From Gemmataceae bacterium (GTDB lineage: Bacteria; Planctomycetota; Planctomycetia; Gemmatales; Gemmataceae): a stretch of 64,000 bases of DNA. The position numbers and the translations under genes were made by a program. The notes under the pieces were generated by a model that was not told where the DNA came from, did no database searches, and saw nothing but the letters and a program-made list of their open reading frames with translations. The DNA lies in the NCBI GenBank assembly GCA_019694755.1, contig JAIBBI010000005.1:1-64000 (forward strand), given 5' to 3'. Shown in pieces: positions 60,477 to 63,583 of this stretch; the stretch's first letter is position 1; each line of letters starts with the position of its first letter.

Positions 60477-60517
60477 GGCTGTCGCCGGGCGGGCCTTTCG
60501 GCTACCATTCTGCGATC

Positions 60518-62473
60518 ATGGACGATTCCGCGCGAACGCCGACGGACCGGCGCGTGGCCCAACTGGAGTCCGCGCTCAGCCGGCGCGGCGAACAGCTCGA
60601 CGAGTTGTATGCCGCCCTCGCCGCCGTGCAGGCCTCGCACGCCTACCGCTTCGCGCAGCTCCTCAGCAAAGTCGGCAACAAACTTCTCCCGCTGCACTCG
60701 CGCCGCCGGCGGGCCGTGCGCACCGCGCTGCGGTCCGGAGTCCGCCTGCTGAAGCGCGTCACCGGTCGGAACGTCGCCCACATCGCCGAGGGCGGCGAAG
60801 GCACGCGGGTCGCGCTTGATCAGGCTCAATACGCCCGATGGATCCGGTCGCATGAACCGCCGGAGCTGCCCCGGGCATTCTCACGCCAGCCGATGATCTC
60901 GATCGTCGTGCCCGTCTACAACCCCCCGGCTGAGTACCTCGAAGAACTCATCGCCTCGGTGCTGGCACAGTCCTACCCGCGCTGGGAGCTGTGCCTGGCC
61001 GACGGCGCGAGCACCGCGGCCCACGTTCGCACGATCCTCGCCGGGCAGACCGACCCGCGCATCCGCAGCGTCACGCTGGCCGAGAACCGCGGCATCACCG
61101 GCAACACGAACGCCGCCCTCGAACTGGCGACCGGTGACTTCATCGCCTTCGCCGACCACGACGACACGCTCGCGCCCTTCGCCCTGGCCGCGCTCGTGAA
61201 CGCGATCAACGAACACCCCGATGCCGACTTCCTTTACAGCGACGAGGACAAACTCGACGCGGCCGGCCAGCGGGTCGACCCGTGCTTCAAGCCGGACTGG
61301 TCGCCCGACCTGCTCCGTACGCACAACTACGTCTGCCATCTCGTCTGCCTGAGGCGCTCGCTTGCGGACCGGCTCGGCGGCATCCGCCCGGGCTTCGACG
61401 GCGCGCAGGATTACGACCTCGTGCTGCGGGCCGGCGAACTGGCGACACGGGTCGTCCACATCCCCCACGTCCTGTACCACTGGCGGCTGCACGCCCAATC
61501 GACGGCCCAGAACACGGCCAGCAAGCAGTACCTTGTCGCGGCCGGGCAGCGGGCGCTCGAAGAGCACCTCGTCCGGGCCGGCTGTGCCGCCCGCGTCGCC
61601 CCGGCCGAGAAGCCGGGCGAGTACCGCGTCCGCTACCTGCTGCCGCGTCAGCCGCTCGTCAGTGTGATCGTGCCAAACCGCGATCAGGTGCAGACGCTGG
61701 GCCGATGCCTCGAGTCGCTGTTCGCGTCGAGCTACGCCAACCTCGAGATCCTGGTGGCCGAGAACGGCAGCGCGGAGGCCGACACGTTTGCGTACTACCG
61801 CGACGTCGAGCGCGGCCACGGCGTGCGGGTGCTGCGGTGGGATCGGCCGTTCAACTATGCCGCGATCAACAACTGGGCGGCAGCCCACGCCCGCGGCGAG
61901 GTGCTGCTCTTTCTGAACAACGACGTTGAGACGACCGACCCGGACTGGGTCGAGGCGATGGTGATGCACGCGATGCGGCCCGAGATCGGCGCGGTCGGCG
62001 CGAAGCTGCTGTATGCCGACGGCACGATCCAGCACGCCGGCGTGGTGCTCGGAATGGGCGGGGCGGCCGGGCACGTGCACCTGTGCTTTGCCGGCCACGA
62101 CGAGGGCTATCTGGGTCGATTGCAGCGCGTGCAGGAAGTCGCGGCCGTCACCGGCGCGTGCCTGATGACCCGGGCCGAGGTGTTTCGGACGGCCGGCGGC
62201 TTCGACGAGCGGTTCGTGCTGGCTTACAACGATGTGGACTACGGACTGACCGTGCGCGAACTCGGCTACCGCGTGCTCTGGACCCCCGAGGCGGAGTTGT
62301 ACCACCTCGAATCGAAGACCCGCGGCTACGAAGACGACCCGGCGAAGCAGGCCCGCTTCCGCCGGGAGTTCGACCTTTTCCGAAGGAAGTGGGAGCGGGC
62401 GCTCACGGCCGGCGACCCTTATTACAACCGCAACCTCCGCCTGGACCGGGCGGACGCGGCACTGCGGGCGTAG
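60518..62473 (+). CDS. Two-domain family 2 glycosyltransferase
   Basis: A 651-residue protein with an N-terminal coiled region (QLESALSRRGEQLDELYAALAAVQ) and two GT2 domains in tandem. Domain one (about 127-350): ISIVVPVYNPPAEYLEELIASVLAQSYPRWELCLADGAST, FADHDDTLAPFAL and DADFLYSDEDKLD. Domain two (about 380-620): VSVIVPNRDQVQTLGRCLESLF, LLFLNNDVETTDPDWVEAM and YNDVDYGLTVRELGYRVLW. Such enzymes alternate two sugars in O-antigen or capsule chains. The ATG used is 41 bases after xerD; frame upstream is a shadow. Confidence 0.9.
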   Translation: MDDSARTPTDRRVAQLESALSRRGEQLDELYAALAAVQASHAYRFAQLLSKVGNKLLPLHSRRRRAVRTALRSGVRLLKRVTGRNVAHIAEGGEGTRVALDQAQYARWIRSHEPPELPRAFSRQPMISIVVPVYNPPAEYLEELIASVLAQSYPRWELCLADGASTAAHVRTILAGQTDPRIRSVTLAENRGITGNTNAALELATGDFIAFADHDDTLAPFALAALVNAINEHPDADFLYSDEDKLDAAGQRVDPCFKPDWSPDLLRTHNYVCHLVCLRRSLADRLGGIRPGFDGAQDYDLVLRAGELATRVVHIPHVLYHWRLHAQSTAQNTASKQYLVAAGQRALEEHLVRAGCAARVAPAEKPGEYRVRYLLPRQPLVSVIVPNRDQVQTLGRCLESLFASSYANLEILVAENGSAEADTFAYYRDVERGHGVRVLRWDRPFNYAAINNWAAAHARGEVLLFLNNDVETTDPDWVEAMVMHAMRPEIGAVGAKLLYADGTIQHAGVVLGMGGAAGHVHLCFAGHDEGYLGRLQRVQEVAAVTGACLMTRAEVFRTAGGFDERFVLAYNDVDYGLTVRELGYRVLWTPEAELYHLESKTRGYEDDPAKQARFRREFDLFRRKWERALTAGDPYYNRNLRLDRADAALRA

Positions 62474-62497
62474 CCCCGCCCGCACCGGAGACGATTC

Positions 62498-63583
62498 ATG
62501 GGCCAGGTCCTGTTCTGGATTCCGATCCACACGGCATGGACGCCGAACGGCGTACCCGTGTACGGCTTCGGCGTCATGCTCTTCCTGGCGTTCGTGATCG
62601 GCTCGGCCCTCGCCGCCCGACGGGGGCGACTCGTCAACATCCCCGGCGACCGGCTGCAGGACCTCATCCTCTGGATCTTCATCGGCGGTCTGTTCGGCGG
62701 CCGACTGTTGTACGTCTGGCAGGCCGGCGTGCCGTGGTCCGCATTCTTCGAGATCTGGAACGGCGGCATCGTCTTCTACGGAGGGGCCATCGGCGGCACC
62801 GTCGCCGGCCTGCTCGCTTACCGGCGCATGCTCCGGCCGTTCGGCGTCACCGCCTGGCAGGTGGCCGACGCGCTCGCCCCGGCCATTGCGATGGGCCTGT
62901 GCCTCGGTCGGCTCGGCTGCTTCCTCAACGGCTGCTGCTACGGCCACGTCGCGGCCCCGGGCTACCCCGACGTGCATTTCCCCGCCATGACCGCCCCGGC
63001 CCGCGACCGCCTTGTCGTGAAGTATGCCGAGCAGACGCTCGCGGGCTTCAGCATGGACGATGCCGCGAAAGACGACCGCACTGTCGGGGTCGTGGAGGCG
63101 GGCAGCCCGGCCGAGGCCGCGGGCCTGAAGCGCGGCGACGTGATCAGCAAGGTCGGCGACACCGCCGTAAAGAGCTTCGCCGAGATCGAGAACGCCATGG
63201 CGGGCGATTGGCCCCGCGGGCAGACCCGGCTCACGCTCGGCGTCACCCGCGGCAAGGAGGAGCTGACGCTGCCGCCGTTCACGCCCCGGCTCATGGGCCT
63301 GTACCCGACGCAGATCTACGAGTCGATCACCGCGGCTTTGCTGATCCTCGCGCTGATCGCGACCTGGCCCGTGCGGAAGTACGACGGACAGATCATGGTG
63401 CTGTTGATGCTCGGCTACGCGGTGCATCGCTTCGTCAACGAGTCGCTGCGCGACGACACGCCTGTTTACGGGCCGTTCACGCTGTCGCAGTGGATCAGCG
63501 TCGGGATTTTCTCGGCCGGGCTGGCGCTGGCGGCCGTGCGGCGGGGCGGCGGGCGCGACCCGGTGGCCGTCGCCCGGACCTGA
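62498..63583 (+). CDS. lgt: Prolipoprotein diacylglyceryl transferase with inserted PDZ domain
   Basis: A 361-residue membrane protein; E. coli Lgt is 291. The family parts are clear: VYGFGVMLFLAFVIGSALAARR, the IWNGGIVFYGGAIGG periplasmic loop, the signature GLCLGRLGCFLNGCCYGH (about 133-150), and later GLYPTQIYES, then VHRFVNESLRDD. Between them (about 194-260) lies an extra PDZ-like domain: VGVVEAGSPAEAAGLKRGDVISKVGDTAVKSFAEIENAM and LTLGVTRGKEELTLPPF. The PDZ sits in the loop after the signature and would face the periplasm. Lgt adds diacylglycerol to the lipobox cysteine of lipoproteins; the PDZ may help capture substrate. Confidence 0.9.
   Translation: MGQVLFWIPIHTAWTPNGVPVYGFGVMLFLAFVIGSALAARRGRLVNIPGDRLQDLILWIFIGGLFGGRLLYVWQAGVPWSAFFEIWNGGIVFYGGAIGGTVAGLLAYRRMLRPFGVTAWQVADALAPAIAMGLCLGRLGCFLNGCCYGHVAAPGYPDVHFPAMTAPARDRLVVKYAEQTLAGFSMDDAAKDDRTVGVVEAGSPAEAAGLKRGDVISKVGDTAVKSFAEIENAMAGDWPRGQTRLTLGVTRGKEELTLPPFTPRLMGLYPTQIYESITAALLILALIATWPVRKYDGQIMVLLMLGYAVHRFVNESLRDDTPVYGPFTLSQWISVGIFSAGLALAAVRRGGGRDPVAVART

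Follow-up and report, generated by a model that had tools for sequence, protein, structure and literature searches.

Most Gram-negative bacteria cannot live without Lgt, the phosphatidylglycerol:prolipoprotein diacylglyceryl transferase, which is also an antibiotic target, and to our knowledge it is still unsolved how the enzyme recognises its protein substrate. In the crystal structure of the E. coli enzyme the loop between TM4 and TM5 is part of the periplasmic head (PMC4728403), and a 2026 study assigns the specificity of Lgt to its arms together with the head, whose sequence is poorly conserved (PMC13251419). The Lgts compared in that study are from pathogens only, and no PDZ domain is found in the comparison. 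A survey of 7,852 microbial PDZ proteins divided them into 12 families, no Lgt among them, with 7% unclassified, and noted an expansion of PDZ proteins in planctomycetes (PMC6411480). We found no published description of an Lgt with a PDZ domain in the open-access literature that was searched.

The gene described here lies in the window, the whole stretch of 64,000 nucleotides of Gemmataceae DNA that was analysed, and encodes a PDZ-containing prolipoprotein diacylglyceryl transferase of 361 aa (PDZ-Lgt; 62498..63583, + strand; Pfam and AF2 model). Its architecture is almost certainly that of an Lgt with an HtrA-type PDZ set into the tip of the periplasmic head loop that connects TM4 and TM5. 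With E. coli Lgt (5azb/5azc) it shares the seven-TM body, the arms, the head and the R143/R239 region, at 25% identity over 256 aligned residues, but where the E. coli enzyme has a variable loop of about 25 residues PDZ-Lgt has about 100, including the PDZ, and N146/E151 and H103 are replaced by two cysteines and a Tyr. The PDZs of the HtrA family (DegP/DegS/DegQ, HtrA2 and Deg8) have the same bacterial PDZ topology, the GLGF-type loop and the PGSPA..AGL..GD motif (Z about 10-11), whereas the PDZ-Lgt chain is without a protease, has an Lgt-specific Q-T before the loop and has both ends of the PDZ joined into another domain. RseP, a site-2 protease and so a membrane enzyme too, likewise has periplasmic PDZs between its transmembrane segments, but its catalytic domain and reaction are unrelated; 7w6x and 7w6y were weak Foldseek matches. 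The Lgt of Leptospira interrogans has a Cys at the N146 position as well, and can partly function in an E. coli that lacks Lpp, but no PDZ is described in it (PMC13251419). The sequence-only reading had called the architecture not textbook; it is clade-wide and not peculiar to the gene in the window.

The Lgt body and its reading frame

The open reading frame runs from an ATG at 62498 to a TGA at 63581-63583 with zero internal stops, and a GGAG at 62487..62490 (+), with a spacing of 7 nt to the ATG, is its likely ribosome-binding site. GC3 is even over the gene (N half 0.92, insert 0.93, C half 0.94) and there is therefore no frameshift, which bears out the earlier claim of one protein not interrupted by a stop or frameshift. 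The gene is adjoined upstream, across a gap of 24 nt, by a gene (60503-62473) whose product has two GT2 glycosyltransferase domains; its stop lies at 62473, just upstream of PDZ-Lgt, and the two are therefore probably cotranscribed. Further upstream in the window are a tyrosine recombinase and a GH57/DUF3536 protein. No gene neighbour is common to the 12 Gemmatales loci compared; a Band_7 gene is near four of them and a VanZ-like gene near four. A Band_7/SPFH-family gene is located directly upstream of PDZ-Lgt in the Gemmatales contigs L133, L135, L138 and L152.

A search against the PDB pairs both ends of the protein with E. coli Lgt and its middle with the PDZs of DegP/HtrA. The Pfam LGT profile (PF01790) matches residues 18-346 with 162.2 bits (cut-off 24.9, 1.8e-47), covering positions 8-239 of its 240, and the AF2 model aligns with 5azb over 256 residues with a Z of 23.0 and an rmsd of 2.9 Å (VIA-align). 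By Pfam LGT and the alignment to 5azb, the N-terminal part (residues 1-175; 62498..63022, +) holds arm-1, TM1-TM4, the signature and the start of the head, and the C-terminal part (residues 264-361; 63287..63580, +) holds TM5-TM7, with YPTQIYE at 269-275 and R311/E315/R318. The Lgt signature, G137-G149 (62906..62944, +; phmmer alignment to 5azb), had been read as intact; it is present, but as a variant, GRLGCFLNGCCYG, of the canonical GRLGNFINGELWG. In it R138 and G149 align with E. coli R143 and G154, and the invariant G/R/N/G of the signature are seen in alignment A5. C141, C146 and Y94 stand in place of N146, E151 and H103, and at the C-terminal catalytic positions R311, E315 and R318 correspond to R239, E243 and R246. 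The essential positions R143, G154, R239, E243 and R246 are all retained in the alignment, as are those of Y235 and E202. N146, E151 and H103 belong to the proteobacterial enzyme and are not universal in the family, the H103 position being Y/W in Firmicutes/Actinobacteria and the N146 position C in Leptospira (PMC13251419), and the cysteine-rich variant of the signature is common in planctomycetes and Verrucomicrobia. The NCBI equivalog model TIGR00544 gives 103.3 bits against a cut-off of 118.9, the match being broken in two by the insert; the Singulisphaera Lgt without insert gives 122.9 bits. The best explanation is that PDZ-Lgt is a genuine Lgt, usually the sole one of the cell.

The PDZ insert and its conservation

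The inserted domain occupies residues 176-263 of the TM4-TM5 periplasmic head loop (63023..63286, +), as delimited by Pfam, by AF2 with VIA and by its absence from sister orders. The sequence-only reading placed it at about 194-260, where the domain indeed is, but its true extent is larger. Three Pfam profiles match, PDZ_6 (PF17820) at 196-237 with 35.0 bits (cut-off 27, 1.2e-8), PDZ_2 (PF13180) at 193-258 with 35.2 bits (cut-off 27) and PDZ (PF00595) at 178-241 with 25.7 bits (cut-off 23.2). LGT and PDZ are thus both above their cut-offs in one ORF. A profile made from Pirellulales inserts only, and built independently of the PDZ-Lgt gene, gave 45.4 bits on the insert, and the best of 5000 shuffles 10.4. 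The full AF2 model, run with an 81-row alignment, has a pLDDT of 90.8 and a pTM of 0.87, and its residues ~162-270 match HtrA-family PDZs of many structures at Z ~10-11 (VIA-align), peptide-bound DegS and HtrA2 chains included. The domain alone (176-263) was modelled with a pLDDT of 91 and reached a Z of up to 10.9 against the PDZs of Deg8, HtrA, DegQ and DegP, so the PDZ fold is predicted both within the protein and by itself. Together with the domain homology of the insert, the predicted fold supports the proposed PDZ insertion on the periplasmic side.

In the model compared with 5azb the insert is positioned in the head over the Lgt active site. The loop is short in the Lgts of Isosphaerales and the Planctomycetales-like family, e.g. 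FPKNSPPWNAQVVSRLIDAKAHWSLPVHPTQIYS, and has the layout FPLSSPPRVAMVERGYQTAAGF-[PDZ]-..IGLHPTQVYE in Gemmatales and FPAGSLPHVHQVEKGIAFIHGV-[PDZ]-..SLPVHPTQIYS in Pirellulales. From these layouts it follows that the PDZ took the place of the tip of a hairpin that was already there; the first PDZ strand joins directly onto native Lgt sequence.

Just before that strand is the carboxylate-binding (GLGF-type) loop, Q179-T180-L-A-G183-F184 (63032..63049, +), with the xxGF at residues 181-184. The consensus Q-T-x-x-G-F is the best-conserved stretch of the insert among 54 Gemmatales (Q179 99%, T180 85%, G183 100%, F184 98%), and the fold positions A205 and D214 are conserved in 100% and 96% of them. 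Overall the insert is less conserved than the Lgt body (mean JSD 0.43 vs 0.57), and the residues of the groove helix alphaB are variable. Such a pattern looks like that of a retained peptide-binding module; it favours peptide binding and names no ligand.

Distribution and origin of the insert

Lgt was found in 63 of the 68 near-complete genomes of the family to which the window belongs, and the loop is enlarged in all 63, as judged by match span or split match and with one ending at a contig edge. In 54 of the 63 no Lgt besides the PDZ form was found, and the other nine add a short insert-free paralogue, possibly a specialised one. The genome of the window has a second, short Lgt-family protein of 233 aa on contig C152 (L002:1471-2172; GRWGCYCNGCCFG), in which R..E..R is retained and the HGGL arm region is not recognisable.

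PDZ_6 is matched in 41 of the 43 Gemmatales Lgts tested. Another 20 long-loop Lgts came from other families in the class, and 12 of these match a Pfam PDZ; many Pirellulales inserts are degenerate and have drifted below Pfam recognition. Among 18 long-loop Lgts from other planctomycete classes (L089-L106, loops of 70-119 aa) there was no Pfam PDZ match, and the head loop is a hot spot for expansion. Named carriers are the Gemmataceae and many Pirellulales, namely Rhodopirellula rubra, Rhodopirellula europaea, Botrimarina, Thermoguttaceae and Mariniblastus; named records without the insert are Singulisphaera acidiphila, Verrucomicrobia and others. The homologue search thus finds a homologous insert at the same site across Gemmatales and Pirellulales, where the long loop is the normal state of Lgt, and finds it absent from Isosphaerales, the Planctomycetales-like family and the outgroups, one insert-free family being assigned to Isosphaerales by its clustering with Singulisphaera and another presumably belonging to Planctomycetales.

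The loop also occurs in more elaborate forms. In a relative (JAKOSN010000092.1, L137:6001-7683) this head loop of Lgt holds three PDZ domains in tandem, with PDZ_6 in three stretches (E 7e-26). Many Gemmata-like PDZ-Lgts (L109-L128, e.g. L117:495-1811 and L127:444-1895) have an extra module of ~65-100 aa, without a Pfam match, embedded in the PDZ immediately ahead of helix alphaB; it is missing from PDZ-Lgt of the window and present in its nearest tree relatives.

The insert profiles of Gemmatales and Pirellulales are homologous (hhalign probability 98.9%, E 1e-17), and a control profile of long loops from other planctomycete classes reached 0.1% against the insert profile. An ordinary planctomycete loop without a domain is rejected for both orders by this match together with the Pfam PDZ matches and the PDZ fold. 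In the Lgt-body tree Gemmatales form one clade and Pirellulales one clade, and the insert needs two changes, that is, two gains, or one gain and losses. In the PDZ-domain tree the Lgt PDZs of both orders are separate from 19 other PDZs (support 93/85), the latter coming from two genomes and the 85 columns including some Lgt-derived flank that may drive the grouping. The PDZ tree is suggestive, not decisive, of a single origin of the Lgt PDZs in both orders.

Possible role of the PDZ domain

The seven-helix body would do ordinary Lgt chemistry, with the predicted transfer of diacylglyceryl to the lipobox cysteine, and the PDZ above the substrate entrance would be a peptide-binding module that grips a peptide, extended or C-terminal, in the simplest case from the preprolipoprotein under modification. 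Its grip may deliver the lipobox cysteine to the active site, or retain it there. In 54 of the 63 genomes there is no other Lgt, which speaks indirectly for this transfer, and the genome of the window also encodes LspA and two Lnt-like proteins; the lipoprotein pathway therefore probably depends on PDZ-Lgt. The odds seem to us about even that this is a working Lgt whose head brings the preprolipoprotein, or alternatively a partner, to dock above the active site. E. coli Lgt functions differently after head swaps, and the study that made them proposes contact between the head and the preprolipoprotein linker (PMC13251419); for this reason we favour docking of the substrate, followed by recruitment of a partner and then gating. 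What counts against docking is the variable groove helix, the many Pirellulales inserts that Pfam no longer recognises, the lack of a conserved gene neighbour, and that Isosphaerales and the Planctomycetales-like family manage without a PDZ.

The PDZ might instead recruit not the substrate but a partner protein, e.g. LspA, Lnt, a Sec/YidC component or an HtrA protease, into a processing complex. Bacterial PDZs commonly bind C-termini and the loop that does so is conserved here, and the genome encodes, besides LspA and the Lnt-like proteins, about 26 PDZ matches; the 12 Gemmatales loci, however, share no neighbour, and we find a partner of this kind unlikely. As a lid or gate, a role that has been proposed for RseP-type PDZs, the domain would limit substrate entry or regulate activity without specific peptide recognition. 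The location above the active site would suit it, as would an insertion site in which triple PDZs, a module within the PDZ and further expansions of a non-PDZ kind are all tolerated, but a steric role leaves unexplained why conservation is highest in the peptide-binding loop, and gating is distinctly unlikely.

A neutral expansion, with a function limited to folding, would agree with the wide variation of loop length across the phylum, the often degenerate inserts of Pirellulales and the sister orders that have none. It is nevertheless very improbable: the insert is kept in every Lgt-positive genome of the family (63/63), G183 and F184 are all but invariant, and the PDZ is recognisable in 41/43. 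An artefact, be it chance similarity, a frameshift or an assembly join, is next to impossible and was rejected by the shuffle control, the uniform GC3 and the recurrence of one and the same architecture across dozens of independent genomes.

A well-understood peptide-binding module thus sits in exactly the Lgt head, and whole bacterial groups have this Lgt as their only one; the closely related orders without the module are ready-made controls with which it becomes directly testable what the head does in substrate recognition. To the bacterial PDZ proteins it adds a non-protease architecture. Gemmatales and Pirellulales could, as a tentative thought, use the PDZ to read a peptide signal of their preprolipoproteins (C-terminal or in the linker), or the tail of a partner, at the step that comes first in lipoprotein maturation and commits to it, and if true this would give Lgt a function in substrate selection or quality control that is known in no bacterium. 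The PDZ in Lgt, the enzyme that adds the first lipid of a lipoprotein, suggests that these two large planctomycete groups select or enlist the proteins to be lipidated by a route unfamiliar from the textbook enzyme.
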